Part shown: piece after piece, positions 14,118 to 60,834 of the stretch
Position numbering within the stretch: position 1 is the stretch's first letter
Layout of the letters: each line of letters begins with the position of its first letter
DNA from: Anagrus nilaparvatae
Lineage: Eukaryota > Arthropoda > Insecta > Hymenoptera > Mymaridae
Assembly (NCBI GenBank): GCA_022575985.1
Contig: JAKSXM010000272.1
Coordinates: 3,782,001-3,846,000, forward strand
DNA: 64,000 nt
Reading direction: 5' to 3'
Notes under the pieces: model-generated
Databases searched by the model: none
What the model saw: the letters and a program-made list of their open reading frames with translations, nothing else
What the model was told of the DNA's origin: nothing
Position numbers and translations under genes: made by a program

Positions 14118-15972
14118 TAAAATCTTATGCAGGATATTGATAGTCATCCACCTAATACAATTTAGTAGCGCTAGTACAATTAAATGATTATTCGAAAGTA
14201 AAAGCATATTTATGCAAAATAGAAGTCACCAGACAAATACCTTATTGTGGTGAGTCATGGTATCAATCAAGTATTCCTGAAGATATCGAAATGGGAAAAG
14301 TATCGTAAATTGAACCTACAACAAGAATGCTATGTGACCAAATGCATCGCACTAGGACTTTAGCATTTAGGAATTAAATAACTATCCCAGGGCTAAAATC
14401 TAATGGATCCATCACGACACCAGTTCAATTAGCAGGACACAAAGGCGAAAAAGCTACTAAATGCACAAACGCCCCTTACATAGACCCGTATGGAGTTTGG
14501 ACCGAAGTAATAGTAGACCGTTACGTAAAAATAACTTAAGAGGATTATTATGCCACAGTAGATCTCAACAACGACCAAGTAATCTTAAATACAGGAACAC
14601 GTTGCAAGTTATCAGACAAATCTTGTACGGATCTTTACGGAGGAGAGGTATACTTGGACGCTACACCAAGAGATAACTGTAGAGAAAAATATTCAAAATT
14701 GTTTACCGGCATAGAGGACAAAATTATAGACCCACTAAAACCAAATAATCCTATTTTCACCTTAGAGATATGAATAGTATTCGCTTTTACGGTTCAAGGC
14801 ACAACCACTGTATGCTCCAATTAGCTATACCGAACGTCACATCCAAGAATTACCATCTACGAAGGAGAAAGACCAGAACTATTAGAAATTCCTGAAGATA
14901 CTTCTCCAGAAAATATTGACCTATTAACCTATATGAATTCTAAATTCATTTACGTAGAAAAACATCTGAAGGTACAAATGCAAAACTTATACCACGATTT
15001 GCTCTTACAAAAATGCAACCTCGAGAAGAAGGTAATTAGAAATTCACTTAATATAGCGCAATTACAACCAGACTTATTCAGCATGCAAGTAATTAACCGC
15101 GGAGACCACATGGGTTTAATCAGTGGAGAAACCATAAACCTAATAAAATGCGTAGGAGTATCAATAACTTACCGTAAGGTAGATACATGTTACCAAGAAA
15201 TGCCTGTCTACAAGGACGGAAAGCCATATTTCATGACACCTCAGTCTCACATATTACTGACCACCGGAACAAGAACCACTTGCAACGCACTGTGCCACCA
15301 ATGTAATTTTTAGGACAAAAATGGTTCAAATTAATGCCTGAAGCCGTAGAAGCTCCTGCACCTCAGATCTTATATCCAGAAACCAAAGGCTCATGGAAAT
15401 ATGTCGATCCAAAAAATTTAGCTGAGGCCGGAATATATACCACATCACAATTGAAAAAGTTGAAAGATTACGTAATGTTCCCATTAGAAAGGGCAGCAGT
15501 TTTAAATACGATAGCCAATGGCATGTTAGGAAGAAACGTTACAGACGAAAATTACAACCCATCATATTTATTTAACGGAGAATCTTTACAAAAAATAATA
15601 AAATCAACATGGGAGCATTTTTTGCGACGATTTGTAGCATTTGGCACATTATCTAGTTGTATATTAGGCGTATTCGTATTATGTAGGCTAGTAAAATTTT
15701 TTATAGATACTAGTTTACATGCTTTCGCACTCTACAGCGTTTATGGATTCTCTATTCACATAATCGGCGCGGTTTGGGACACATTAACCCAATTATTATT
15801 ACACATTGGCACGGAGCTTATTTGTCAAACAGAAACTCCGCCCATAGAAAATACAGTAACGACCCCCACTGCTCCCGAACAAGTAGTAGAACCACGCATA
15901 GAAATGGACGCCATAGGCCCATTATATCCGCTACTAGGTAGACGACAGCTGGAGAATGTTAATAATGAATAA
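14118..15972 (+). pseudogene. Envelope glycoprotein pseudogene, chuvirus-like, of element F
   Basis: Downstream of integrase lies a long env region in several frames. It has cysteine-rich ectodomain pieces (CDQMHRTRTL, TRCKLSDKSC), a heptad-rich helix (14933-15110), a conserved DTCYQEMPVYKDGKPYF stretch, and in 15334-15972 a transmembrane segment followed by a second conserved hydrophobic segment and a polar cytoplasmic tail. The overall pattern resembles glycoproteins of chuvirus-related negative-strand RNA viruses that have been captured by insect LTR elements. Several stops and frameshifts break it. The family call is from memory of pattern, not a search. A related env is split at 38.0-40.7 kb. 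Confidence 0.6.
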
Positions 15973-17085: not shown

Positions 17086-18756
17086 TCCTCAGCAGCACGG
17101 GTGCCTTCCGAAAACGTTAAAACACGGGGGGGTCTAGCGGACCCCAGCGACTTTGTAAGTCTATAACTCCTTCAAAATTGAGCCAAACTTAACTTCTTTT
17201 TTTTTTATTTCGAACGCAGAAGAGTTCAAGTATGCGATTATAAAATAAAATCTGAAAATTGTTAGCCTGTTTAAAGATATTAAAAAAAGACAATTTCTTG
17301 TCATTATAATTAGGGTGATTTTTTTAAATAGCCATAAAATTGGTTTAAAAAATTATAAACAACTTTTTAACCACTAAACGGGAAATGCCAAAGGGTAAAC
17401 TTTAAAGAAATTTAAGTAAGAAATTTCAAATTAAAGAAAACATTAATTATTTCCTTGAATTAAAATGACACCTTTTTGAAAATTTTTATGTGCATAATTT
17501 TTTTTATTAAAATAGTTTTTTTATTTTAAAAATATAAAAAATAAATAATGAACTAATTCCACAAATATTGAAACACATTTTTATCATATTTTTTATAACC
17601 TTGAAAGCATACCCGAAGTATATACTTTGCCCATTGCGTTTTCTGAACTTTATGCATTAAATTTTCAATTTTCTCACCAAATATGTTTTGGGCAATATTT
17701 GGCAATGTTTAAATTATTTAAAGAACATTTTTTTATTAAATTTTTATAAAACATTGATTTATCAATCAGATAATTAAAAAATATTTACAAAATTACAATT
17801 TTTTTAAAGCAAAAAATATTACGTAACTACACGGGGGGTCTAGCGGACCCCAAAAAATGTTTTCAAAGCGCATGCAACCAATACACGAAAAGTTCTGGGG
17901 CTTTTATAGTTGTAGATGAGTAATACAACAACCAAAATGAATTACCAAACTAATACAATAGAGTGGACCTAAAATTAGAGTTTTGAGAAAAACTTTGCTC
18001 CCCGGGTTTTTTTGTGAAGTTTTGGTCATAAAAAGTCCCCATCTCCAAGGATTTTGATATTGCTTTGCAAAAACACGTGCCTGTAAGCACCTCAATTTTC
18101 CCATTTAAATAACATGGGAATTTTGACTTTTCAGCTTTCTAATTTTTTCACGTGCTGAAAAATTTTTTTAAACACTACCAAACAGATAGAAAATGATGTT
18201 TAGACATATAAAAACTGATCCCTAAAGTTGTAGAAGTCCCGGAACACTTTGTTTTATCAAAATAAAATTTTTTAAAATCGCAATCTTCCCATTTAAAATA
18301 CATTTTTTTTTATTTATAATGGATTTTAAATGAGAAAATTGCGATTTTTAAAAATTTTATTTTGATAAAACAAAGTGTTCCGGGACTTCTACAACTTTAG
18401 GGATCAGTTTTTATATGTCTAAACATCATTTTCTATCTGTTTGGTAGTGTTTAAAAAAATTTTTTCAGCACGTTAAAAAATTAGAAAGCTGAAAAGTCAA
18501 AATTTTCATGTTATTTAAATGGGAAAATTGAGGTGCTTACAGGCACGTGTTTTTGCAACGCAAAATCAAAATCCTTGGAGATGGGGACTTTTTATGACCA
18601 AAACTTCACAAAAAAACCCGGGGAGCAAAGTTTTTCTCAAAACTCTAATTTTAGGTCCACTCTAGTATACAATAAGTGCAATTATAGATTTAGAATAATG
18701 CCATGTTTTTTAAAACTACCATGGGGTCCGCTGGACCCCACCCGTGCTTCTGAGGG
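17086..18756. mobile_element. piggyBac-type MITE with TTAA duplication
   Basis: TTAA at 17082-17085 and 18757-18760 flanks imperfect inverted ends: TCCTCAGCAGCACGGGTG at the left and CCCTCAGAAGCACGGGTG read inward from the right. Subterminal GGGGTCYAGCGGACCCC palindromes occur near 17130, 17835 and 18725. No transposase is encoded. The TTAA target and CCC-type end suggest piggyBac mobilisation. It contains a 0.7 kb palindrome (17958-18665). Confidence 0.75.
17958..18665. repeat. Palindrome (two 0.34 kb arms) inside the piggyBac-type MITE
   Basis: The left arm starts near 17958 (GAGTGGACCTAAAATTAGAG) and the right arm ends near 18665 with its reverse complement. Arms are nearly identical over about 340 bases around a centre at about 18305. 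ORFs predicted on both strands here (17904-18104 and 18533-18760) are mirror images and not genes. A transcript crossing it would fold into a long hairpin. Confidence 0.85.
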
Positions 18757-19894: not shown

Positions 19895-20103
19895 AAAATT
19901 CGGCGTGAAATTTTCCGTAATTGGCAATTTAAACATAAGCTAATTTTTGTCTGTACATATTCTTTTAAATTTTCCCAGTAATAAGACTGGCGAATTCTTT
20001 GAATAGTAGCTTTTTGACCTCCATGTCCTGCAATAGGCAGTTCATGAAATTCCTTAAAAATAGCTTCTCTGTCTTTTTCTTGTACGTAGATTAATCTATA
20101 CAA
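19891..20103 (-). pseudogene. Integrase zinc-binding domain of element A, truncated
   Basis: ORF of 70 residues with FHELPIAGHGGQKATIQRI and CLNCQLRK, giving the HHCC zinc-binding pattern of retroviral-type integrases. The catalytic core is absent: the sequence ends at the junction with the LTR fragment of E. This is the 3'-most remaining part of element A on the minus strand. Confidence 0.75.
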
Positions 20104-20870
20104 ACCTTAAGGTTTGCTTACAAACTATTATTTTAAACTTATTGTCAGCAATTTTATGTATTAACTTTAATATGTCTGAAAAAGATACGTTAGCTATAAA
20201 TATGCTTTCTGCAATACTTAAGTTATTTTTATTATTAAAATTATTAAGATATACGATTACTTGTAAGATTAATGTTTCTATATTATTTAAAACTAATTTA
20301 ATTGATTCTTTAGGGTTAATGTATAAGCCAAAAAAAATTTTATTTTTATGTTTTTGAATATTTAAAGTATTGATTTTGTTTTTAGAAGAACTTTGTATTT
20401 TTCCTGCTTTTATTAAATTAATCGCCCCTTTACACAAAGCTTTTCCATTTTCGTCTATAAAATAAATTATGTTATCTTTTCTAAATTGTAATAAATCTTT
20501 TAAGTATATTAAATTGCTTAAATTTAAATTATTATTATATTAAAAATTAATATTGTCATTATTGACTATGCTGTCGTTATCTGACATTTCGGATTCATCA
20601 CTACTAAAATCTGATTTTGTTAATGATTCATTTTCTATATTTTGAATATTTTTGTTGTTTAATTTAGGAGGCCTGCCTATTTTATTTTTAGGCAATTACC
20701 GTTTGTCTATTATTTTTTGTTTTTTATAGTTTCTCTGTTTTTGAGCTTTTTCTTGTTTATTTTCAGAATTTTTATTACCAATGTTTGGGTTTTCTTGTTT
20801 ATATTTTTGTGCACGAATTAAGACAATAGATTCTTGTGGCATCTCAATCCGCCACTACATTAGCTTTACC
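20104..20870 (-). pseudogene. Macro-like linker domain of element A
   Basis: The ORF at 20096-20437 plus about 120 bases upstream reads DNIIYFIDENGKALCKGAI, then HKNKIFFGLYI, a long helix (SIKLVLNNIETLILQVIVYL), LSIAESIFIANV, a helix (ILKLIHKIADNKF) and a final KIIVCKQ strand. This order resembles macro domains of the TARG1 class and the equivalent region of element B. The glycine-rich phosphate loop of active macro enzymes is not evident. The N-terminal side (20440-20870) is an acidic, low-complexity connector (FSSDESEMSDNDS). The domain call is inference. Confidence 0.4.
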
Positions 20871-23142: not shown

Positions 23143-25329
23143 CTTAAAATGTTGTGTATTTTTATTGGGTTAGATTGAAATTGATGGGCAATGCATGCTG
23201 TTGTTGTCCTTGGGTTGAAAATTGTTGTGGGATTTGTACATAACCAGACCCCTGTAACCCTATAAGGGTATGTAAACGGTTTCCCTGAATTTGCGAAAGT
23301 TGAAATTGGGCACAGTTATTTACGCTGTGATAAGGGTTGACGCAAAATGTGCAGCCTCTTTGATAATTTTGATTATTATTTCTTGGTCTATACCCGTTAT
23401 TTCTATTTTGATAGTTATTTTGGTTATTATAATTATGTGCGGTTTTGGTTATAGTTTTGGTTATTATTATTTATATTATTATTATTGTTGTTATTGTTAT
23501 AACGTCTATTTTGGGTATATCTTGAATTATTATTTTGATTATTAGACTGAAAATTTCTATGATTATTTTGAATTGAATTATTTTTAGAATTTCCTTTATT
23601 ACACTCGCTAGTATTATGTGTATGACTATTGGGGTGATTTTGGCAAAATTTTTGACTTTTTTCTGAGTTTACTTGTTTTTGGCTATTTTTATCTTGAAAA
23701 AATAGGACTGTTTTTTCTATTGTTGAACATAGAGTTTCTACTAATTGCTGTAAATTATTAACTTTTTCTTGAACTTTTTTTGGGCAATTTTCTATTTTAT
23801 GGTCAGTAGATGAACATTTTTCGCATTTTTCTAGATTAATGGTATTGATTATTTCTGTTTTAGTGTCATTTTTACGTATTGGTTGTACTTCATGTCTCAT
23901 TCCTTTATATTTTTCCAAATAATCTTCAATTATAGTTGCTTTTTTAGCAATTTCGCCAACTGTAAGTAATTCAGTGTCTAAACCTAATCGACATTCTACT
24001 TCTGGTAATAGACCTCTTTTAAATCTATTTCTTGCTATTTGGGTAATTTGGGTATTAAATTTATTTATTAAGGCACGCTTTCAGAAAATTTTCGATTTTT
24101 TTTTTATTCTTTTATTTTATTTAAAAACTATTTAAGAATATATAAAAAAAATTTTAAATTAAAATTCTAACGCGTTTAGGATATATTAAAGTTTTTGTAA
24201 AGGTATTCATATACGTAAGTATACTAAAAAAAAACTTTAAACGCGTTTTTCTCGAAAAAACTTTTTTGAATCGGCTTGCACTCTCTTTCAAAAAGTATAC
24301 ATCCGATTTAACTAATTTTTTTTTTATTTTTTTAAATAATTAAATACGCAGGGTTTAAACCGACAAAATCAACAACAAAAAATTTTTTTTGGTCTTTTAT
24401 TTAGCTTATGAGGTCCAATTTCGTGCCAAAAAAACGGTTTTTTTTTCATTTCACTGGCATTTTTTTTTTTCAAAAAAATTTTTTTTTTGTCGGTTTAAAC
24501 CCTTGGCAAACCAATTCTAAAAACAACCTTTTTTGGTTTTTTTGTCTTAGGCAACCTAGAGTTGAGATATCGTGCAAGCCGCAAAAAACTACCTCAACTT
24601 TGGCGCGCTATATATCCAGACTGATAAAAGCAAAAAAAAAATAATAATAAAATATGTTAGTTTAACTCTTGTATAATCGTGTAAAATAATTTTTTTTTTG
24701 ATATTTAATAAAGTAAAAAAAATACACGCATTTTAAAAAGCCACCTTTTTTTTTCCTAAAACTGAAAGCGTGCCTTAAAACAGCTGCATTTTCGATGTTA
24801 CCTATGCTGGTCTGGTAGGTTTTCTTCGTTTTATTAACTATTTCTACTAATCTTAGTTGGTAACTCAATATTCTTTCGCCTTTAATTTGATAAATATCCC
24901 CTATTTTATGTGATAAATCAAGATAGTCTACTTTTTTACTGAATAATCTTTCGAAGTGATGTGTAAATTCAGAAAGGGACTCAAAATTTATATCTAAAAT
25001 TGAATCATAAGCATTTCCGGTAATTTTATAATGTAATAATCTTAGAAGCAATGGCCATGATTCTCGTGGGGTTGTATTTTTGGCTCTTTGAATAAAGCCA
25101 AGTGAATACGTCGGGAGTCTGCCCATCGAAATTTTGAATACTGTCTAATGCTATTTTTAATTCAAAGTTTGTGTTGGTTGTGCCATATTTGTATTTGGTT
25201 TATTAAAGTTGTTAATATTGTATTCTATTAAACTGTTTAAATTGGCTAGATTTTGTTCTGCTAGGTTGTCAAGATCTTGTCTTACTTGTATCTCTCTGGT
25301 ACTTAATAGTTCACTTTCGAAAGTGGGTT
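23143..25329 (-). pseudogene. gag of element A, main part
   Basis: Reading from 25329 downward: a capsid region (FTWLYS-type then RESWPLLLRLLHYKITGNAY, EFTHHFERLFSKKVDYLDL) to about 24775, then a TTAA MITE, then ARNRFKRGLLPEVECRLGL, a CCHC-like CEKCSSTDHKIENC, a second CTFCVNPYHSVNNC and an extremely Asn-rich C-terminus with NNNN repeats. Gag stops near 23162. A frameshift exists near 25160. The N-terminal 135 residues are displaced to 35441-35845 by the insertion of element B. Confidence 0.75.
24072..24774. mobile_element. TTAA MITE in gag of element A
   Basis: TTAA at 24068-24071 and 24775-24778 flanks inverted ends GGCACGCTTTCAG / CTGAAAGCGTGCC. Internal inverted repeats include GGGTTTAAACCGAC (about 24352) and its complement (about 24488). 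No transposase. The GG end differs from the CCC ends of piggyBac elements, so a Kolobok-type or other TTAA system is possible. It lies inside the gag of A, so it post-dates A. Confidence 0.8.
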
Positions 25330-26049
25330 GTTACGGATTCGAGTTATATAAATAATTATCCAGTTGAGTCTAATGGCCTTATGTTTTAATTGATGCTGTT
25401 GGTTCTACTGGTTCCCTAAGGATATGTTATATCGGAAAAGGTTATCCAAGTAAATGACTGAACACGTAGATGTTTATAATATTTCTTGTTTATTAAGATT
25501 TTACTGTTCTCTGAACTTTGTAACCAAAAATATATATCTACTGGACTATTTATGTTGACTGAGTAAGGACTAGTAAATGATGTGTACATATAGACGTCTG
25601 AGTTCCTGACTGCCCGCTCTTAGCGTTTGTAACGACATATATACTCGTTGTGGGTGGTAACCCCCCCTGGGAGGAAGTAACTATCTTTGTTTACCCCTCG
25701 ACTCCCTGTAGACCATTTTACATTAGTCCTGTAGACCATCGGGGTATGGGTCTGTATTGATTTTAGTTTACCCTCTAAACTTATCTGAACGATTAACCCT
25801 ACTTAGGTTTGCTTTTCCCTTATAGTGAAAGGCTGGAGGGAGCTTCCCCTTTATTCAGTCGAAAAAGGGTGGCCGTAAACTATAAAAGAGGGTGCTTATC
25901 TCTTTTTGAATATTATTAATCAATAGTCAAGATATTCCTGTAGGCCTTTGCAATAAAATTTTATGGGTTATTCTGAAGAGGTGGAGGGTGGAATTTATTT
26001 TATATATTAGGGTGGTGTCTATATTAGGGTGTTTAGTAAATCCCTAACA
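25330..26049 (-). mobile_element. 3' LTR of element B (LTR1)
   Basis: On the minus strand it begins TGTTAGGGATTTACTAAACA and ends ATCCGTAACA. It is about 720 bases long and matches LTR2 (34720-35440) with about 14 differences by eye. GGGT immediately follows on the gag side (25326-25329) and matches GGGT beside LTR2 at 35441-35444, giving a 4-base target duplication for the whole element B. A TATAAAAGAG promoter motif lies near 25880 on plus sense. Confidence 0.85.
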
Positions 26050-26147: not shown

Positions 26148-27197
26148 TTATTTCTCGGTCAAATCCATTACTACATTATCCTCTGATAGAAACTCATGAG
26201 CTCTCCTTAATTCGTCCATGTGTACGGGTTTAATCTTTTTTCCATTTTGAATTAAAACTATGTGGCTATTAGGATATACTTTTAGCACCTCCAGCGGTCC
26301 AATGTAAGAATCCCGCTCATGCTTATTGACCTTTTTCCTGTTCACTCTATATACCATCTGTCCCTCGTGAAAACGGATAGCATTCACTTTTCTGTCGTAG
26401 TAGCTTTTGCTTTTAAATTTACTTTGAATTGAGTTCATACCAGCTATTGTTTAAGCCTCAACTAAATTTTCTGCTAAATCTGCAAAATATTCGCTAAATG
26501 TTAACAGTTTATCTCTAGGTGGAAACATCGAAGGTGTTCGTGCTTTGTAACCTCGAACTAAAAGAAAAGGAGAAAATCCCGTTGAAGAATGCTTAGTTGT
26601 ATTGTGGGCATGGCTTGCTAGTTTTAGATAATCACTCCAATTTCTTTTATTTCCCACATATTGCCGTATATAATGAACTAACGGACCGTGACAACGTTCA
26701 ATAGCTCCTGAACATTGTGGATGAAATGCACTCGTTCTGTATTGTTTTATTTGGAACATTTCTGCAAACCCTTTCATTATTTTTGACTGGAATTGTTAAC
26801 CTAAATCTGTCAGAAAGGCTTTAGGGGGACCAAATTCTGCAATTACATGGTTTACTAAAGCTTTAGTGACCTCATTAGCCGTTGTATTTTCTAGCGGTAT
26901 AGTTATTAACCATTTAGTCAACAGACACAATACTGTTAGAACCCAACGGAATCCTGTAGACGTCAATAACGGACCGTGAAGATCTATACTTAGTTTCTCC
27001 ATTGCTCTGCATTGGGTATCTGTTATAATTAATGGCATGTGAACCTCAGGTTTTGGGGTTTTGGTTCGTTGGCACCCTTCACAGCATTTCAGAAAATGTT
27101 TTATTTCTAACCTCATATTCTTCCAATAAAATTCATCTGTTAATCTGTGATAAGTTTTTGTAGATCCATAATGTCCACTTACAGTATTTTCATGGAA
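26148..27197 (-). pseudogene. Integrase of element B
   Basis: Three ORFs in one continuous frame (27116-26796, 26777-26451, 26438-26148), separated by single stops. Before them HENTVSGHYGSTKTYH and CCEGCQRTK give the HHCC zinc finger. The DDE core is complete: KLSIDLHGPL, KAFLTDLG and GAIERCHGPLV. The C-terminal SH3-like region has YIGPLEVLKVYPNSH and KKIKPVHMDELRRAHE. It would insert the cDNA into the genome. Stops at 26796 and 26451 inactivate it, but the catalytic residues survive, so decay is recent. Confidence 0.85.
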
Positions 27198-27656
27198 TTA
27201 TTTGATTAACCTATATCTGTCATGTGCTGGTGGCACAGGAGTATTATCATGATAAAAAATAGCTTTGATTCTTTTACCCTCAAAAGTTTTGTTTAAAGAT
27301 TCAATAAATTTCATAACTTGCATTTGTGTCATCATTTCTAAGTTTTTTATTATTGCTACTTCATTTATTTTAAATTTATCGACTAGTTTTTCCAAAGTTT
27401 TGAGACATTTGTCTATATCTGCCTTAAGATTATTCGCGTCTAGGTATGGTTTTATTGTAAGAGCAAATAGTTTTTTGTTTTTGTGGGGTACTACAATTAC
27501 TTCTCCTACTTTTACTTTTTTAGTCTTTAAATATTGTAAGTTAACAATTTTTCTTTCTATTAGAGTCATTAATACTTCACTGGAATGTAAATCTGCTGCT
27601 ATACAAAATATTAAATTGTTGCAACTTAAAAATGGGTGACCATTTGAAATTTTCAT
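27198..27656 (-). pseudogene. Macro-like domain of element B pol (TARG1-type pattern)
   Basis: 152 residues in the same frame as the OTU domain before it (one TGA at 27660-27662) and the integrase after it (one stop at 27198). Order of elements: NLIFCIAADLHSSEVLMTLI, KTKKVKVGEVIVVPHKNKK, LFALTIKP, a helix (LKADIDKCLKTLEKLVDKF), INEVAIIKNLEMM, a helix (VMKFIESLNKTF), then RIKAIFYHD. This follows the alternating beta/alpha order of macro domains such as TARG1, which hydrolyse or bind ADP-ribose. The glycine loop and the GCGLD-type catalytic segment of active enzymes are not conserved, so binding or structural use is more likely than catalysis. Assignment is inference from pattern. Confidence 0.45.
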
Positions 27657-27659
27657 ACA

Positions 27660-29693
27660 TCACATAGGGCTAATCTCATTTTTTTTAGAATATGGAGGCT
27701 TAGGCTCCTGTCTTTGTTTTTGTGAGACATTTTTGGACTCTTTCATATTTTTATCGTTTGTATCAATTTCTTCTATACTCATTTGTTCAATTTCGTCTTC
27801 AGTACTAGATTCTGTATCATTTTTTATAATATCATTTGCTCTAATCAACGGGGTGTAATGACTTGATTTTAAATGTAAATGTAAGAAATCATCATTTTTA
27901 TTCACTATATAATGAGCATATGTAATTTTTCTTTTGCCATTTTTATCTTTTTTATTATCATAAACATGTACGCAAATATTCTTCTTAAATTCTCTTGAAA
28001 ATATATATAAGGTATCCCCGTCTCCCCAAGCATGGTCCGTGTTTAAAATTGCATATGCCTTCCTTGGGTTTTCACAAATTTTTAGAGCCGGACTTTGCTT
28101 TAAAGAATTTCTTAACTCTTTGATATCCATTTTAATTCCTGACAAGATCAGTAAACTGTCAAATAAACAGTCAACTGTATTGTCAATATTTTTATATCTT
28201 AGAAAATTTCTATTTTCTGCGCATTTATTTGATTCTATGTGCCATGGAAAATCGATATTTTCATCTTCATTTGAATCAATGTTTTCTATTTCTATATTAT
28301 TAATATTATTATTCTTTATAGTATTTATTACTCTACTGTTTTTATTTTTTGTAACCTTCTTATTTGATTCATGACTTTTCATTTCTATATTTATGATTTT
28401 ATTGTTCTTTTCTCTATTACCTTTTATTTTCACATCGAACGTACCTTCGTAATGTAAATTATTTTCATCGGGAAAAAGTAATTTAAAATACGGTTCATTA
28501 TCATCTTCTATTTCATAATTAGCATTATCTATCTTTTTACGCTTAAATTCCTCAATTTCTCCGTTACTTACTTTTCTTTTTTTACCTTTTTTGTTGTCAT
28601 TATTTGTGGGTAGTTCTTTAATTTTATTTTGTTTCTGTGTATTAATCTTAGTATTTTTATTTCTTGCCTTTAAACTTGTTTTTGTCGTTGATGAATTTAC
28701 TATATCTTTATAATTTTCTGGAATTCGTTCTAATATTATTTTGGGGATTTTTAGATTTTCAGTATTAATTTCATTTGATTTATTATTTTTAATTGGTAAG
28801 TTTTTAAACTCCGTAATCTTTTTATTTTTATTAATTATCTTTTCAATAGGTAGGCGTTCTAAAATTACTTTAGGATTCATCATATTCTTATATTTATTTT
28901 TTATTTCAAGTTTTTTATTAATTTCTTTATTTTCATTATTTCTTTCTGTCTTATTACTGTTCTCTAAATCTTCTTTAACTGAATCTCTTTTTCTTAAGAC
29001 TCTCTTGTTAGTCACTATCTGGTTGTCTATCTTATTTTTCTTTGGTGGGACATACTCATCGTCTGAGCTGTCAGTTTTTCTTAATACCACTTTAGCATTT
29101 ATTTTCTTTCTTGATGCTCGAATTCTTCTTATATGAAAATCTGTAGACTCTGATGATGATGTTTCACCTGAATCTTTTTGTTCTGCTTTTTGCAACAACA
29201 CTAGTCTAGGCATTTCGGGGTCTTCTTGATCTTCCTTTAAAGGAATGTTTCTTGATAGTGCATCTGCAACTATATTCTTTTTGCCTGGTTTATAGACTAT
29301 ATCGCAATCATAACCTGTTAAATTAGATGCTAAATTACACGCTGAAAGGTATGTGTGCCTTTGTTTCTTTAAATGGGTCAGAGGTAAATGGTCCGTATAA
29401 ACCGTAAAATGTTTACCATATACATAAGGTCGAAACTGGACCACGCCAAAAATTATCCCTGTCAATTCCCGCAGATATGTTGAAAATTTTAATTCAGATT
29501 TTTTTAGTAGTCGTGATGCGTAGGCAATGACATATGGTTTCTTATTTTCATCCAACTGTTCCAAAATAGCCGAGACTGCAAAATCTGAGCTGTCCGTTGT
29601 AATTATGAACGGTTTCTCGTAATCTGGAGCCCTTAATACCGGTTCAGAGCATAGTTTTTCTTTAAGCTTCTTGTTGCTTTTCTCCCCAAACAA
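27660..29693 (-). CDS. RNase H - basic linker - OTU-like cysteine protease domain (element B pol)
   Basis: An intact 677-residue ORF. Residues 1-148 are RNase H: ITTDSSDFAVSAIL (Asp 34), YTDHLPLTHL, ending IVADALSRN. Residues 150-480 are a charged linker with four short repeats of the form K-V-(V/I)-L-(R/E) near 201, 231, 275 and 318 (for example PKVILERLP, PKIILERIP), rich in Lys, Asn and Glu. Residues about 500-617 have the OTU pattern: NTVDCLFDSLLIL with Cys 509, HAWGDGDTLYIFSREF, ICVHVYD and SSHYTPL with His 612. OTU enzymes cleave ubiquitin chains. The macro-like domain and integrase follow in frame. The ORF starts in a short overlap with the preceding RT frame. Confidence 0.7.
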   Translation of the reverse strand: MFGEKSNKKLKEKLCSEPVLRAPDYEKPFIITTDSSDFAVSAILEQLDENKKPYVIAYASRLLKKSELKFSTYLRELTGIIFGVVQFRPYVYGKHFTVYTDHLPLTHLKKQRHTYLSACNLASNLTGYDCDIVYKPGKKNIVADALSRNIPLKEDQEDPEMPRLVLLQKAEQKDSGETSSSESTDFHIRRIRASRKKINAKVVLRKTDSSDDEYVPPKKNKIDNQIVTNKRVLRKRDSVKEDLENSNKTERNNENKEINKKLEIKNKYKNMMNPKVILERLPIEKIINKNKKITEFKNLPIKNNKSNEINTENLKIPKIILERIPENYKDIVNSSTTKTSLKARNKNTKINTQKQNKIKELPTNNDNKKGKKRKVSNGEIEEFKRKKIDNANYEIEDDNEPYFKLLFPDENNLHYEGTFDVKIKGNREKNNKIINIEMKSHESNKKVTKNKNSRVINTIKNNNINNIEIENIDSNEDENIDFPWHIESNKCAENRNFLRYKNIDNTVDCLFDSLLILSGIKMDIKELRNSLKQSPALKICENPRKAYAILNTDHAWGDGDTLYIFSREFKKNICVHVYDNKKDKNGKRKITYAHYIVNKNDDFLHLHLKSSHYTPLIRANDIIKNDTESSTEDEIEQMSIEEIDTNDKNMKESKNVSQKQRQEPKPPYSKKNEISPM

Positions 29694-30557
29694 TTTGCTG
29701 TCCTTTTTTTAATAAATCTGATAGTGGTTTAGCTATCGCAGAGAAATTATATATGAAACGACGATAATAACTGGCGAGCCCTATAAATTGCCTTAATTTT
29801 TTTAATGTATCTGGTATTGGATAATTTTTTATAGATATAATTTTATCTGGATTGGGTTTTATTTGACCTCCCCCGACTAAGTGACCTAACACTAATGCTT
29901 CTTTTCTCAAGAATAAACATTTCTTTGGATCAAGCAATAAATTTGCTTTTTTTGATCTGTCAAATACCCTTCTACATGTCGCTAAGTGTTCTTCAAGATT
30001 TTTAGAGTATCATCTAGGTATACCCAAACATCATGTCCTATTAAACTTCCTAACGCTAAATCCATCAATCTAGACCATGTGTGTGATGAGTTAAAATGGC
30101 CCATAGGCATCCGTTTAAAGCAATAAACAGACGTAGGGCCCATAAATGCTGTATAGGGCCTGCTAGACTCCTCAATGGGCACTTGATAATAAGCAAGACA
30201 CATATCCAAAGTAGTGCAATAAAAAGCGTCAGAAACCGCATCTAATATTTCGTGAGGCTGTGTTAATGGGTAGGCATCATGTAGAGTTATTTTATTCAAA
30301 TTTCTAAAATCTGAAACAATTCTCCAGCGTTTTTCTCCATGTTTGGTCGCTTTTCGTGGAATCGCCCATATATGTGAGCTCTAAGGACTCTCTGTTTTTT
30401 CAATAATTCCTAATTCTAAGTATTTTTGAATATTTTTTTCAAGGGCTTCTTTCGCGGCGTAAGAATGACGAAATTGTTTAGATTTGAACGGTACGTCTGA
30501 TGAAAGTCTGATTTTATGCTCGATTAAATTCGTACAAGTGAATGGTCGTCCTTCAAT
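29662..30557 (-). pseudogene. Reverse transcriptase of element B
   Basis: ORFs 30299-29982 and 29937-29662 carry RT: ITLHDAYPLTQPHEILDAV, CTTLDMCLAYYQVPI (first Asp), VYCFKRMPMGHFNSSHTWSR and VWVYLDDTLKIL (YxDD at about 30018-30030), then CLFLRKEALVLGHLVGGGQI and FIGLASYYRRF. There is a frameshift near 29980 and another at 29680 into the RNase H frame. Upstream (30300-30557) the frame reads KQFRHSYAAKEALEKNIQKY with one stop. Catalytic residues are kept. Confidence 0.8.
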
Positions 30558-31748
30558 TTAAAATAATTCTGCATATTCGTCTACTAAGCTTTGTATTTGT
30601 TGTAACTCTTCTTCATTTAAATCTTTTTTGTACAACATATCATAAACGGTTTTTACTAATTTTTCTCTCTCTTCTGCATCTATATTATTCTTATCGATTT
30701 CTATCGCACCTTCCTTTTTAAAATTTTCCTCGAATGGTTCTAATTCAATTGAGGGGGCATCAATTTTTATTACATCATCCGAAGTATTAATACACATGAT
30801 TAAAGCTCTACCTGCTTCATTTTTAACAATAGCTTCATTTAATAATATATTTGGGTGGATATTTTGTAACGATATTAACCCTTCTTCCATTTCAGGATTT
30901 TTCACAAGTGCATCAATTATTTGTTTTGAATGAGGTTGAATTAAAAACTTCTCCCTTTCAGTAAAAGGTTTTGTATATGGTCCTAGCCGTACTTGCATTT
31001 TTGCTATATCAATTTGTCCGTTATATTTTTCTAATATATCTAATCCAATAAGACCTGCAGTTTCCATGTAAAATTCATCGTCTACTACATGTAAATTACA
31101 GGGTAAGTTTTCTAAAGGTACAATAACCTCTCCTTTAGTATAATCGTAATTATTCGTAATTCCCGAAATTCTCAAGAATGAATTTTTATTAATTATAGCA
31201 TTGTTATTAAGGGCTGTTTTCTTAATTAAAATTACTTGTGAACCAGTGTCAACAAAAAAATTTGCTTTGCCTGAGGCTAAACTTGAGCTTTTTAGCGTAA
31301 TAATAGGGGGAATCGTTTTGATGCTTGCGAGTAATACCTTTTTTGTTTCGATATCCGTATTTTTGTTTCGATTAGGGTCTATGACCTATGGGGGTTCTTT
31401 CGCCTCCCCTATTCTTTTGTTAGGAAGCTGAGCTTTATTGATTTCGTTTTTCCCTTTTTTTATTTTGAGGGGTTCATTTATTTTTGCTCTTTCATTTATT
31501 ATAGGTTCAGAAATATTGATTAAATTTTTAACTTCTCCTTTATCAGCTGATTTAGTTATTTTTTTAGTTTTGTTTTGAATATTTTTATTCTCATTTATTT
31601 CTTTGTTTTCTAACTTAGTATTTGGCTTAGCCTGTTTTATTTTAATATTTTTCATTGCTGTTAATTTATTTGTTATATTGTACGGTTTTACAACATTAAT
31701 CGGTTGAGTTATATTATTAGGCTCAACTCCACTCGAAGTTATGCACAT
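30558..31748 (-). pseudogene. Aspartic protease and pre-RT region of element B
   Basis: 31748-31386 is a Lys/Asn/Ile-rich linker. After one stop the same frame gives ANFFVDTGSQVILI (DTG active site, about 31270-31235) and the ORF 31175-30558 with RISGITNNYDYTKGEVIVPL, LIGLDILEKYNGQIDI (the hydrophobic-G-hydrophobic-D pattern near the protease C-terminus), and a connector ending QSLVDEYAELF before RT. The protease would cleave the polyprotein. Only the stops at 31386 and 30558 interrupt this stretch. Confidence 0.75.
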
Positions 31749-31893: not shown

Positions 31894-33516
31894 TTAAATT
31901 CGGCGGTAATATATATAATTATAATTATAATTTCCACTTTTCATTGATCTAAACATATTTGGACGACTATTATAATTTCTGTTAAAATTATTTCGATTAT
32001 AATTTTGATATCCTATATTATTCTCATTAAATCTTGGTCTATAATTTCGATTATCGTATTGTCGAAATAAATCTCTGTTGGGGTTATATCTTCTGAATTG
32101 GTTAAATCCAATAGAATCATTGTAAAAATTTCTATTATTAAATCTAGAATCGCTATTTTCTATTAAATTAGGATTTCTTTTAAAAAAAATATTTTCGTTA
32201 TTTTGGTTATCGAAATTTCCTCTTCTCATTTGAAAATTATTTTCATTAAATCTTTCTCTATTATTTTCAATTTTTCTTTCTTTAAAATCATCATTGTTTT
32301 TCATCATTGATTGCATAAATTTAATAATTCTTGGTATACTTGGGCATGCTTTAGGTTTGTGTAATACTGACTTGCAGAAGATACAGATAACTTTTGTAGC
32401 TGCAGCCGTTCTGACGATATATTCTTTTAATTCATTATCCGAATCAGAGTCGTCATTATAACTTCTTCGTTTAGTAATAATTGATTTCTTAGGCTTTTCT
32501 TGTTCACAATCTTTTTTAAATCTAACCGTTCCTTCTCGTTCCTCCAATTTTATTGCTATATTTAAAGCTTCAGCTAGCGTCTTCGGGTTTTTGGCTGATA
32601 CTCGATATTCTGGTGGGTCTCTCAACCCAAATATAAAGCATTCAAGCGCTTCTTGTTTTATTCTTTTTTTATTTTTTATTTTTTCTTGTTGATCTTAATC
32701 ATCCGCTGCCTCATAAATTGTAATTAGTTTTTGTTCTAATGTTTGGATTCGTAACGCGTAGTCCTCGACAGGTCCATTCTTATATTGGTGGATGTTTCTT
32801 AATTTCAAGCGAACTGTTTCTCTGTCCTGTGTTGCTCCGAATTGTAACTTCAATGCGTGGATACAATCGCCAACTGAATTGTAATTGTGGAACGAACCTT
32901 TAAAAACTTGACTTGCACGTCCTTTCAGTTTTCTAGATAATATTTGGAGTATATGGAGTTCGCAACTTGGACCATAATTCTCGACGAGGTTTTCCAATGA
33001 TTTACAAAAACTATATAATGTTTCGCTTTTTCCGTTATAATCTGATATTAAATTTAGTGCATCTTTAAATGGAAGTATATTTTGCCTTAATGGTGGGATT
33101 GGTCTATACTGTCGTCTCTGCTCAGGATTTTCAGTCCCGTTTAATCCACCATTTACATGACTTGCAACAAATTCTTCCCAATTTTTCTTTAATGTCAAAA
33201 ATTTATCTTTTTCTTTTTCTTTATATTCAGCTAAGTCTCTTAATAATTTCTCTCTTTCATTAGTCCAGTCACTTTCATGAGAGTCTACATTTAATATTTT
33301 ACTTTTTGTACCCCGATTTTCATTAAAACGAGAAATTAATTTTTCAAATTCTTCGTCCGGAAGTATGAGCTTTTTTTGTTTATCTTTGCTCGCGTTTTGA
33401 GCTTCCAGACTATAAGCATTTAGGAAATTTAAATCGTTCGATTGAGGTGATTCCTCTTCTGTATAGTGCCCCTCCTTTTCTCTCCAAGTTTCGTTATGAA
33501 TTACAGGATTAACCAT
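31894..33516 (-). pseudogene. gag of element B
   Basis: Two ORFs in one frame separated by a stop at 32695. The ORF 33516-32695 starts MVNPVIHNETWREKEG, has a coiled region, then the capsid: ILPFKDALNLISDYNGKSET, ILSRKLKGRASQVFKGSF, NIHQYKNGPVEDYALRIQTL. The ORF 32625-31894 has LAEALNIAIKLEEREGTVRF and a degenerate zinc knuckle CIFCKSVLHKPKAC, then an Arg/Asn/Tyr-rich C-terminus (FNENN, RNYRP) that looks like an RNA-binding tail. The pol frame differs, so frameshifting between gag and pol is possible. Confidence 0.8.
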
Positions 33517-33993
33517 CGTAATTTATACCAATTATTATTTTATTAATACTTTTAAATATATATATTTTTTTATACCGTTTGCTATTCTCTTTCTTGTTTA
33601 TAAAAACTTTATATTTACTCTTCGCTTTATAAAAATTTTTTTTGTTTTCTATTTACTTCTCTGACTTTTTATTATTATTTTTGTTTATTTGTTGACTTCT
33701 CTTATATAATTTAATTTATGGTTAAAATTTTTTGCATATTAATAAGTATTTTTTTGTTTATTTTTGGTTACTGTAAGAGGTTCTGAGTTTCTTAATAGTG
33801 TATGAATTTGTTTTAATAATGTGCAACGTTAAAGAAAATAAGTAAAATAAATTTTATACTTATCTCTTACACTGTCAATATTAAGAAGGTTGTACGCTGC
33901 ATGGCTGCAATTTTTCAGTTTCTTGATGATATTTTCCTCCTTGTAATAACTTTTCCACCAGCTTCACGGTAGCGGAACCAGAATTTATTTATA
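33517..33993 (-). mobile_element. Untranslated leader of element B
   Basis: Between the end of the partial LTR3 (33994) and the gag start (33516). On the minus strand, 13 bases after the LTR end, lies TGGTTCCGCTACCGTGAAGC, a candidate primer binding site because it starts TGG. The rest is AT-rich without a protein. The tRNA primer was not identified. Confidence 0.45.
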
Positions 33994-34195
33994 TGTTACG
34001 GATTCGAGTTATATAAATAATTATCCAGTTGAGTCTAATGGCCTTATGTTTTAATTGATGCTGTTGGTTCTACTGGATCCCTAAGCATATGTTTTATCGG
34101 AAAAGGTTATCCAAGTATATGACTGAACACGTAGATGTTTATAATATTTCTTGTATATTAAGATTTTACTGTTCTCTGAACTTTGTAACCAAAAA
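33994..34195 (-). mobile_element. Partial LTR of element B (LTR3), the 3'-terminal 202 bases
   Basis: It matches the minus-strand 3' end of LTR1/LTR2 (ending ATCCGTAACA) and is followed by the B leader. On the other side it is joined directly to a copy of internal gag A sequence at 34196. It is the surviving end of the original 5' LTR of B. Confidence 0.8.
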
Positions 34196-34719
34196 TATCT
34201 GTCTGGTAGGTTTTCTTTGTTTTATTAAGTATTTCTTCTAATCTTAGTTGGTAACTCAATACTCTTTCGCCTTTAATTTGATAAATATCCCCTATTTTAT
34301 GTGATAAATCAAGATAGTCTACTTTTTTACTGAATAATCTTTCGAAGTGATGTGTAAATTCAGAAAGGGACTCAAAATTTATATCTAAAGTTGAATCATA
34401 AGCATTTCCGGTAATTTTATAATGTAATAATCTAAGAAGCAATGGCCATGATTCTCGTGGGGTTGTATTTTTGGCTCTTTGAATAAAGCCAAGTGAATAC
34501 GTCAGGAGTCTGCCCATCGAAATTTTGAATACTGTCTAATGCTATTTTTAATTCAAAGTTTGTGTTGGTTGTGCCATATTTGTATTTGGTTTATTAAAGT
34601 TGTTAATATTGTATTCTATTAAACTGTTTAAATAGGTTAGATTTTGTTCTGCTAGGTTGTAAAGATCTTGTCTTACTTGTATCTCTCTGGTACTTAATAG
34701 TTCACTTTCGAAAGTGGGT
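34196..34719 (-). repeat. Duplicated segment of gag A within element B
   Basis: About 524 bases closely match 24805-25329 (about ten differences by eye), including the ORF 34517-34197 equal to the capsid start of A. Together with LTR2 it forms a 1.25 kb block (34196-35440) that duplicates 24805-26049. The join with LTR3 at 34195/34196 occurs at short shared CTGG-like sequence. This is a recombination or gene-conversion product, not a separate element. Confidence 0.75.
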
Positions 34720-35440
34720 TGTTACGGATTCGAGTTATATAAATAATTATTCAGTTGAGTCTAATGGCCTTATGTTTTAATTGATGCTGTTGGTTCTACT
34801 GGATCCCTAAGGATATGTTTTATCGGAAAAGGTTATCCAAGTAAATGACTGAACACGTAGATGTTTATAATATTTCTTGTTTATTAAGATTTTACTGTTC
34901 TCTGAACTTTGTAACCAAAAATATATATCTACTGGACTATTTATGTTGACTGAGTAAGGACTTGTAAATGATGTGTACGTATAGACGTCTGAGTTCCTGA
35001 CTGCCCGCTCTTAGCGTTTGTAACGACTTATATACTCGTTGTGGGTGGTAACCCCCCCTGGGAGGAAGTAACTATCTTTGTTTACCCCTCGACTCCCTGT
35101 AGACCATTTTACATTAGTCCTGTAGACCATCGGGGTAGGGGTCTGTATTGATTTTAGTTTACCCTCTAAACTTATCTGAACCATTAACCCTACTTAGGTT
35201 TGCTTTTCTCTTATAGTGAAAGGCTGGAGGGAGCTTCCCCTTTATTCAGTCGAAAAAGGGTGGCCGTAAATTATAAAAGAGAGTGCTTATCTCTCTTTGA
35301 ATATTATTAATCAATAGTCAAGATATTCCTGTAGCCCTTTGCAATAAAATTTTATGGGCTATTCTGAAGAGGTGGAGGGTGGAATTTATTTTATATATTA
35401 GGGTGGTGTCTATATTAGGGTGTTTAGTAAATCCCTAACA
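34720..35440 (-). mobile_element. 5' LTR of element B (LTR2)
   Basis: Full-length LTR, 721 bases, TG...CA on the minus strand, nearly identical to LTR1. Its outer flank is GGGT (35441-35444), matching the GGGT at 25326-25329 beside LTR1. Across one GGGT copy the gag A frame of 35441-35845 continues directly into the gag sequence beside LTR1, which shows that B is inserted inside the gag of A. Confidence 0.85.
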
Positions 35441-38940: not shown

Positions 38941-38944
38941 TGCC

Positions 38945-40557
38945 CACACCAGTCTCGAAGGAAATTTTATCCGATCCAAAATGGTGACAAGAACGGATTG
39001 TTTCTACTCATTAAAGACACTTTGTACATGACAAAAACACCCGGGAAAAATCTGGAACTGCTGCGCTTTTTAAAATATTCAAAAAAAACGTATTTTACAT
39101 GCATACCTATACAAAACCTACACAATTTTAGGGTTTTTAAGAATTTTCATAGAATTTTTTTTTTAATCAATACTATTCTGTTTTATTTATGATCCCAGGA
39201 AAAATATAGTAATCAAACATTAAAATTTTTGAAAAAATAATTAAATAAAGATTTTTTTAAGGGCAGTACTTTAATTTTATCCTGTACCTCTTATACATGT
39301 GAATTTAGGTTTTTATTATGGTATCAATCATCCCTAAGCATTAAAAATTTTTCTTGACGTTAATACTCCAGAAAAATATATTCTATTATCAAATAACAAT
39401 CGATTTCATGATTAGAGAAGTTTATAAAATGCTTAATTTATCAATTTCACTGATAACAGGCGACAGTCTCAATTTTTTCATTCAAGGGTCCAGAGAGTAT
39501 TTCAAATATATTGTAATTATAAAATTTTTCTCAGACTTAAAACTTTTTCAGACATTATTTTCCGAAATTATATGTAGTTCTTGCACACATAAAAACAGAA
39601 TCAAATATTTATTTAGTCTTAGAATAATTATTTTCAACTCATTTAATTATTAGAATCCCAATTTTTTTATCTAATTCACATTTCAGTTTTGAGTTATTAC
39701 ACACTTATAACTTCTTTCTGAGCCTAAAAATATTTTCAGCTATTATGTAATAATTACAGCATCATTTTTTAACATAAAATATAGAATTTGAAGAAATTTA
39801 AAGCATGTAGTCATTCAGAACTGCAATGTAATTTAGATAAAAAATTGGAATTCTAATAATTAAATGAGTTGAAAATAATTATTCTTACACTAAATTAAAA
39901 TTTGAATCTATTTTTATGTGTGCAAGAACTACATATAATTTCGGAAAATAATGTCTGAAAAAGTTTTAAGTCTGAAAAAAATTTTATAATTACAATATAT
40001 TTGAAATACTCTCTGGACCCTTGAATGAAAAAATTGAGACTGTCGCCTGTTATCAGTGAAATTGATAAATTAAGCATTTTATAAACTTCTCTAATCATGA
40101 AATCGATTGTTATTTGATAATAGAATATGTTTTTCTGGAGTATTAACGTCAAGAAAAATTTTTAATGCTTAGGGATGATTGATACCATAATAAAAACCTA
40201 AATTCACATGTATAAGAGGTACAGGATAAAATTAAAGTACTGCCCTTAAAAAAATCTTTATTTAATTATTTTTTCAAAAATTTTAATGTTTGATTACTAT
40301 ATTTTTCCTGGGATCATAAATAAAACAGAATAGTATTGATAAAAAAAAAAATTCTATGAAAATTCTTAAAAACCCTAAAATTGTGTAGGTTTTGTATAGG
40401 CATGTAAAATACGTTTTTTTTGAATTTTTTAAAAAGCGCAGCAGTTCCAGATTTTTCCCGGGTGTTTTTGTCATGTACAAAGTGTCTTTAATGAGTAGAA
40501 ACAAACCGTTCTTGTCACCATTTTGGATCGGATAAATTTTCCTTCAAGACTGGTGTG
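38945..40557. mobile_element. Foldback element F2 (1.6 kb palindrome) inserted in env of element E
   Basis: Inverted ends CACACCAGTCTCGAAGGAAA and complement; arms of roughly 0.75 kb are nearly identical, with a loop at about 39700-39810. TGCC flanks both ends (38941-38944 and 40558-40561), and the env frame is continuous across one TGCC copy, which proves the borders and a 4-base target duplication. No coding capacity: ORFs at 38998-39653 and 39895-40504 are mirror images. Its mobilising enzyme is unknown. Confidence 0.9.
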
Positions 40558-40561
40558 TGCC

Positions 40562-59455: not shown

Positions 59456-59505
59456 TTTTTAAGTTCTGAAGTACCCCCTCCCAATATACATGTTCCATGT
59501 AAAAA

Positions 59506-59815
59506 AAATGTTAGCTTACCATATCAGTCAAAATAATGAAAGTATAATTTCATAAAATTTAAAGAAAATAATACTATGAAATGAATTATAAAAATAATTT
59601 TTACTCTTATTTATAGCTTGTATAATAATAAAAATAATGTTTTAAATAATAGAGTCACAGAGTTTTTTATTTTATTATTATTAAAAACATTATATTTATT
59701 ATTATGCAAGCTAGAAAAAACATTTTTATTTTTAATTTTTTCATAGTAATATTTTCGCTAAATTTTATAAAATTCTACTTTTATTATTTTGACTGTTATG
59801 GTAAGCTAACAATTT
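59506..59815. mobile_element. Small foldback element F5 (0.3 kb palindrome)
   Basis: Inverted ends GTTAGCTTACCATATCAGTC and complement GACTGTTATGGTAAGCTAAC, arms about 140 bases, centre about 59660. AT-rich, non-coding. Confidence 0.8.
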
Positions 59816-60834
59816 TTTATATTAAAAATTTTTTTTAACTATATTTAAATTATTTAATAACTTATATTTTTATAGTTATCTTACATAACATCTATTACTT
59901 ATTGACCATGGATTATCATATTCTGTATTATTTATGTAAGATCATAATTTTATATTTATCCTAATTTTTATAAAAAATTGTAAACAATTATAAAAAATTT
60001 TAGAATTATGAAGATGTCACCATTGGTGATGAAACGTTAAAAAACAAATAAAATATCTTTACTAAGACGATCAAATAAAAAATTATTATTTAGAAATTTA
60101 TTGAGTGAAAATTTCCAATATGATTAGACCAGTCAAGTTTGCTTAGGTATTTATTGATTTTATGTGTCGTAATTTTGTTAAGCGCTTCATAGGTATGAAT
60201 CGTATTTGGAGGAGTACTATAAAAGAAATAAATTGTAACTGATATTATTTAATGTCTACTCGGAAAAGTCAAAAAGTAATAATTTGTCAAAACTTTTTAC
60301 TGTAAACATATATGGAGTCCATACAATTGTCATTTTCAGTTTTATGGTGTGTTGGACCCGTTTCAACCAGATTAAGCGACGTATCACCCATTATAAGTAG
60401 TTATAACAAATTATATACTTTTATTAAACTATAGCATATGCTCCAGTTCTTTTATTTTTTTAAAATGTAAATTAAATATTTTATTGCTTAAAAAAAATAA
60501 TAGTATCTTGGGTCTGGATCGATCGCGAGACGTTTTAGTTACAAATCTAACACGCTATCAATCTACTATACTTGCATGACTATTTGTTTGTGATATGTAA
60601 ATTATTGAATAATAATGTAATTATAATCTTATTATTTTTTATTTTTCCATCAAGTGCACCAAATTACATCTAAAAATAAAAAAAATATTGAAATTCATAT
60701 TTTACATAATTATTTTGCAATAATTAGTTAATTTTGTGGTATACCCAAGTCACTTAATTAAAATTTAAATTTAAATTTCAAGAGAGATTTATTGTTATGT
60801 TATTATTGTCGTTATTAATTAAATTCCAGTTTTA
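59816..60834. other. AT-rich spacer
   Basis: No gene. A GC-richer patch at 60510-60560 (GGATCGATCGCGAGACG) has no recognised identity. Near 60010, GTCACCATTGGTGATGAAACG forms a small hairpin followed by AACGTTAAAAAACAAATAAA, reminiscent of retroelement 3' ends. Confidence 0.3.

Follow-up and report, generated by a model that had tools for sequence, protein, structure and literature searches.

A Ty3/Gypsy clade of Anagrus nilaparvatae with an OTU-type domain and a macro-fold tether before integrase, and an in-frame UGA conserved between the two in one subclade

The window analysed here, a stretch of 64,000 nucleotides from the 488.7 Mb, 393-contig genome of Anagrus nilaparvatae, contains on its minus strand a decayed Ty3/Gypsy copy, hereafter element B. 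Comparison of the window with itself revealed the 5′ LTR at 34196–35440 and the 3′ LTR at 24803–26049, which are 97.9% identical over 1247 bases; these limits are approximate. A 205-base piece of the LTR (34720–34924 and 25329–25533) occurs a third time at 33994–34198, just inside the 5′ LTR. Between the LTRs, the features of a Ty3/Gypsy element can be followed from gag through reverse transcriptase and RNase H to an H2C2/rve integrase, several of these parts being broken. The gag region (31894–33522) consists of two open stretches, 32695–33522 and 31894–32694, the first of which matched the Pfam family PNMA above the cut-off (9.5e-7) and Retrotrans_gag just below it (7e-5). It is followed by an aspartic protease region (30558–31385; RVP, E = 0.009, below the cut-off), a reverse transcriptase split in two frames (29662–30380; RVT_1, 2.5e-14 for 29982–30380) and an RNase H domain (29310–29708; RT_RNaseH_2, 3.1e-28).

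RNase H opens a frame of 682 amino acids, stop to stop (27660–29708), which continues through a basic Asn/Lys-rich linker (28272–29309) into an OTU-like domain (27789–28271), delimited with alignment A4, the Pfam OTU matches of relatives and a search of the insect's own genome. Translation of this ORF agreed with the initial annotation, which had placed RNase H, linker and OTU in a single frame, with Cys 509 and His 612 as catalytic residues; their codons lie at 28169–28167 and 27860–27858, and a Trp-Gly motif is present. The frame is closed by an in-frame TGA (27660–27662), behind which the macro–integrase frame starts with a macro-fold, TARG1-like tether of 153 codons (27201–27659), followed by a TAA (27198–27200) and the integrase region (26148–27197), broken by two further stops. 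The integrase piece 26796–27197 matched Integrase_H2C2 (3.1e-15) and, below the cut-off, rve (9.5e-6); the piece 26451–26795 had no Pfam match. Both single stops that had been described, between OTU and macro and between macro and integrase, are there, but they do not share the same explanation. The TAA is absent from the nearest copies (L002–L004), in which the frame is open across this site for 503 amino acids, and it therefore looks like decay of copy B. The TGA, which had been taken for decay, is conserved in relatives.

A second Gypsy element of the window has its tether at 20099–20539 (minus strand) and served for comparison; no OTU was found in it, the OTU piece of element B matching only element B within the window. 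PDB chains of Upstream of N-ras also matched this second tether (E = 0.004), probably by chance. On the plus strand, a Gypsy-type element at ~9.4–16 kb carries, after its integrase, pieces of a Monjiviricetes fusion glycoprotein (14540–15310; PF24664, E = 1.7e-51 and 4.1e-10), which we take to be of the chuvirus type. Self-inverse (palindromic), foldback-like stretches lie at 38942–40560 (1.6 kb, 94%), 17959–18664 (0.7 kb, 96%) and 59502–59818 (0.3 kb, 81%).

We determined the spread of the domain order by searching the own genome with the macro piece of element B, which gave at least 112 matches. Fifty loci were examined: the 30 best, with 55–100% identity to this piece, and 20 of the other 82, hand-chosen and most with full-length matches, with 36–44% identity. 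An OTU stretch lay just upstream of the macro part in 29 of the 30 best loci (L005 being the exception) and in all 20 of the others, several of which were truncated or frameshifted. The arrangement noted in element B, with OTU between RNase H and integrase, recurred in 49 of the 50 macro-bearing loci. OTU stretches were open in 42 of the 49 loci with an OTU match, and macro stretches in 46 of the 50. A search of the own genome with the OTU gave at least 150 matches (150 of 300 candidates scored).

Pfam OTU gave no match for element B alone. Among its relatives, L031 matched PF02338 with 25.4 bits, above the curated cut-off of 23.3, and L034 (19.0 bits), L002 (16.2 bits) and four others scanned singly stayed below it; 12 of 21 aligned members matched at E up to 10, mostly weakly, with a best E of 2.3e-5. 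The relatives showed the pattern expected of an OTU and shared with the Pfam domain, namely G-D/E-C-L-F with its Cys, mostly a WG, and a terminal HYTPL with its His. The two catalytic residues, on whose conservation in intact relatives the initial annotation had staked its OTU assignment, were kept in full elements: of the loci alignable at the respective position, 48 of 49 have the Cys and 49 of 50 the His, the exceptions being L030 (Ser) and L049 (Asn). Compared with PF02338, the Gypsy OTU is divergent, and it is best described as a putative enzyme. The comparison of folds that had been proposed for both domains was successful for the macro part and not for the OTU: a PDB search with the OTU profile (A4) found no OTU chain and only chance matches (interleukin-2, E = 0.13), PDB searches with the OTU piece, its homolog P0001 and alignment A1 found nothing OTU, and an AlphaFold2 model built from a two-sequence alignment was unusable (pLDDT 37). 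Motifs, Pfam matches of relatives and conservation support an OTU-type domain in B's clade.

Elsewhere, the protein database held one homolog of the OTU among 17 candidates (P0001, 57%; 69.5% to its best own-genome copy) and one of the macro part among 29 (P0002, 63%; 88% to its best own-genome copy). A further search of this database, using the complete ORF as length frame, left none of 163 candidates at E ≤ 10, and searches of viral contigs and genome contigs confirmed no relative. P0001 and P0002 derive from short ENA contigs, which indicates that related copies exist in other public records. P0001 ends and P0002 starts at the UGA junction, the pattern to be expected of predicted proteins that a stop divides.

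All 32 readable loci of B's clade have the in-frame TGA at the OTU/macro junction (30/30, plus L061 and L063); L073 was unreadable at this site, and L080 coincides with L015, the OTU frame of which breaks first. Decay was thus rejected as the origin of this stop. The 20 loci read from the sister clades all encode Lys or Arg at this site, and their intact copies carry OTU and macro within a single frame that reaches 2046 amino acids. In an unrooted tree, one clean split (support 1.00) parted the TGA copies from all others; the tree comprised 35 distinct sequences, drawn from the 39 loci in which OTU and macro stretches are both open. The TGA copies fall into six lineages with pairwise dS of 1.1 or more, that is, with high or saturated synonymous divergence. 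Upstream of the TGA, the frame measured 1393–1704 amino acids in 13 of the first 31 of the at least 150 matches to the OTU; downstream, it measured 501–508 amino acids, with a full-length integrase, in 21 of 30 loci. An apparent integrase frame of 2101 amino acids in L023 was an artefact, produced by a run of N. All 21 full-length integrase frames ended in TAA (17) or TAG (4), never in TGA. Counted by lineage, TGA stood at the junction in 6/6 and at the integrase end in 0/5 (Fisher p = 0.002), which argues that both the presence of a stop and its identity as UGA are conserved.

Integrase of the UGA clade probably needs either UGA readthrough or reinitiation. The codon after next was ATG in 29 of the 32 loci, GTG in two and TTG in one (L063), and this TGA-NNN-ATG arrangement fits both mechanisms. 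The signal for a 3′ RNA structure was weak (alifold −2.05 versus −0.27 for the null, with 3 of 100 column-shuffled alignments as low; 21 distinct sequences), and to our knowledge the bases downstream of the UGA form no strong readthrough context. Stop-codon readthrough in retroelements is exemplified by murine leukaemia virus gag-pol, where a conserved in-frame stop separates two coding frames, as it does here. In contrast to such elements, the stop described here parts RNase H–OTU from tether–integrase, and alifold found no strong 3′ structure.

The macro part of element B alone matched ThsA_Macro at 0.012, below the Pfam cut-off. The macro profile of its clade (A5), however, matched TARG1 with E = 6e-6, with agreement of fold and residue register over 123 residues and Foldseek rank 1. 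The macro-like part proposed for element B is real and has a TARG1-type fold. The loss of the macro glycine loop and catalytic segment, which had been read from B's tether, was likewise evident when A5 was aligned with TARG1: the glycine-rich ADP-ribose loops and the presumed catalytic Asp position are not kept, and a Lys invariant in A5 aligns with the TARG1 Lys that we take to be catalytic. Because the loops and the Asp position are missing, we class the tether as a macro fold and not as an ADP-ribosyl hydrolase. It thus has fold, register and Lys position in common with TARG1/OARD1 (C6orf130), from which it differs in these losses and in its place between RNase H and integrase.

A tether profile made from the family of the second element (A6) also matched TARG1, with E = 3e-4 over 91 profile positions. 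The link between A5 and A6 was weak (hhalign probability 19%, E = 0.0012), A5 did not match the single tether of element A, and A6 members taken singly gave no Macro match in Pfam at E ≤ 1. As a TARG1-like tether is likewise seen in Gypsy elements near which no OTU was found, the macro fold is probably the ordinary Gypsy tether, to which only the OTU was added. A macro domain in an LTR retroelement is also known from fish endogenous retroviruses, where it reportedly forms an additional ORF (PMC4977317); here it is the tether between RNase H and integrase.

To judge selection, we computed dN/dS by the Nei–Gojobori method, leaving out pairs with dS below 0.05 or undefined. In the UGA clade, the median was 0.114 for the OTU (256 pairs), 0.101 for the macro part (314) and 0.077 for integrase (86 pairs, 23 of 30 open), values that are rough because dS is saturated (median dS 1.5–1.9) and that come from pairs that are not independent. 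Restriction to pairs with dS < 1 gave 0.137, 0.131 and 0.075 respectively. Ratios were higher than in the UGA clade both when members of different clades were compared (0.276 for the OTU and 0.293 for the macro part) and for pairs within the sister clades (0.266 and 0.193 respectively). Purifying selection acts on OTU, tether and integrase.

A derivative group of OTU matches has open frames near 805 amino acids and no macro match listed nearby. In L081, the one member in which reverse transcriptase loss was read, the protease region is fused to the end of RNase H, followed by linker and OTU. The catalytic Cys is replaced by Tyr in all nine members read (L081 and L099–L106). Comparison of seven of them, one apparently with a partial frameshift, gave a pN/pS of 0.55. 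The Cys is still present in further short-frame OTU stretches (L083, L084 and L107–L109). The catalytic site is thus maintained in elements that also carry RNase H and integrase, and lost in the derivative group. The idea that the OTU is needed on its own, judged from OTU-only families, was unsupported, given the loss of the Cys in the L081 family.

A related OTU occurs in the same genome within a 1433-amino-acid frame (L085 + L082), together with a Mutator-like transposase (PF20700, 1.2e-68) and a YqaJ nuclease domain (8.7e-17). Alignment of this OTU with the Gypsy one gave 40% identity in 138 columns (hhalign E = 2.4e-32), and Pfam OTU was not reported for the Mutator-like frame at E ≤ 1. 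Although the OTU is shared, its carrier here is a DNA transposase. OTU domains have also been described in Ginger1 and Helitron DNA transposons (PMC2836005). Ginger1 resembles B's clade in having a Gypsy-type integrase and an OTU in one protein, but it transposes by cut-and-paste as a DNA element, is flanked by terminal inverted repeats and has its OTU at the C-terminus. In contrast, element B is an LTR element with reverse transcriptase and RNase H, has the OTU before integrase, and does not class as Ginger1.

For tether–integrase of the UGA subclade, termination followed by reinitiation at the ATG one codon past the UGA, instead of readthrough, is a serious minority possibility: the TGA-NNN-ATG spacing and the start of the predicted homolog P0002 at the junction Met speak for it, but two copies with full 501-amino-acid integrase frames have GTG at this place and L063 has TTG, and reinitiation after a frame of 1400–1700 amino acids is rare in eukaryotes. 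Moreover, the junction Met is also present in clades without the stop, so its conservation need not reflect initiation. A rival reading of the OTU is that it cuts its own polyprotein in cis and frees tether–integrase, in the manner of the turnip yellow mosaic virus PRO/DUB, with ubiquitin a secondary matter. We regard this, too, as a minority possibility. The OTU does lie directly upstream of tether–integrase in the single-frame clades, and a viral OTU with both polyprotein-cleaving and deubiquitinase activities is known (PMC5695851), but element B already has an aspartic-protease-like region, and in copies of the UGA subclade that reach the junction the frame stops 39–56 amino acids past the matched OTU. 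There would be little left to cleave, and yet Cys and His stay.

The initial annotation had viewed OTU and macro as a matched pair, a deubiquitinase and an ADP-ribose eraser acquired jointly against host defence. Both folds are indeed present, the OTU residues are kept, and the invariant tether Lys falls on the presumed catalytic Lys of TARG1; the pairing nevertheless appears very unlikely, since a TARG1-like tether is also found in Gypsy elements with no OTU match nearby, the weak A5–A6 link notwithstanding, and the residues for ADP-ribose chemistry, that is the glycine loops and the presumed Asp position, are missing. Closest to untenable is the view that the OTU is a functionless passenger kept by recent spread. 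Many copies are decayed, and the derivative family has a Cys-less OTU, but dN/dS of about 0.11–0.14 at high dS in the UGA clade and the conserved Cys and His of the full-element clades already contradict it for those clades.

We therefore favour, with reasonable though not strong confidence, the reading that element B is a decayed member of a clade in which an OTU-type cysteine protease was added to Pol before a macro-fold tether and protects the element itself, that the tether is non-catalytic, and that readthrough keeps integrase low in the UGA subclade. The OTU would be an active ubiquitin (or ubiquitin-like) protease inside Pol, an activity suggested by the conservation of its catalytic residues, their loss in derivatives and the recurrence of OTU in other transposases. 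It may strip ubiquitin from the particle or integration complex of the element, or from host factors met there, and by analogy could spare particle or complex from proteasomal removal before integration, as may hold for other OTU transposases. The tether would be a structural, non-catalytic macro relic, most likely a spacer holding integrase apart from RNase H. In the UGA subclade, readthrough of the UGA would yield integrase at a low level, so that reverse transcriptase and OTU would be made in excess of it.

More tentatively, and at somewhat less than even confidence, this can be widened to a broad set of Ty3/Gypsy elements having a TARG1-derived macro fold as their standard tether, one clade of which inserted an active OTU before it, and one subclade of which placed an obligatory UGA ahead of tether–integrase, with the result that recoding would ration integrase and nothing else. 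Nothing that we recognised among the PMC literature matches listed describes an OTU or a macro domain within the Pol of a Gypsy element. Three features appear new: the maintained OTU of this Gypsy clade, a macro-fold tether seemingly shared with OTU-less Gypsy elements, and a conserved UGA parting off integrase.

OTU domains recur in unrelated mobile elements, namely Ginger1 and Helitrons (PMC2836005), the Mutator-like transposon and Gypsy, and this recurrence suggests that DNA integration is repeatedly contested or controlled through ubiquitin. The Gypsy elements lend themselves to a test, since a single genome houses elements that keep the catalytic site, derivatives that have lost it and Gypsy elements in which no OTU was found. 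The macro-fold tether, if true, would account for a stretch of Pol so far unassigned. Likewise, if the UGA does ration integrase alone, it would amount to a translational switch specific to integrase, an unusual way for an LTR retrotransposon to control expression.
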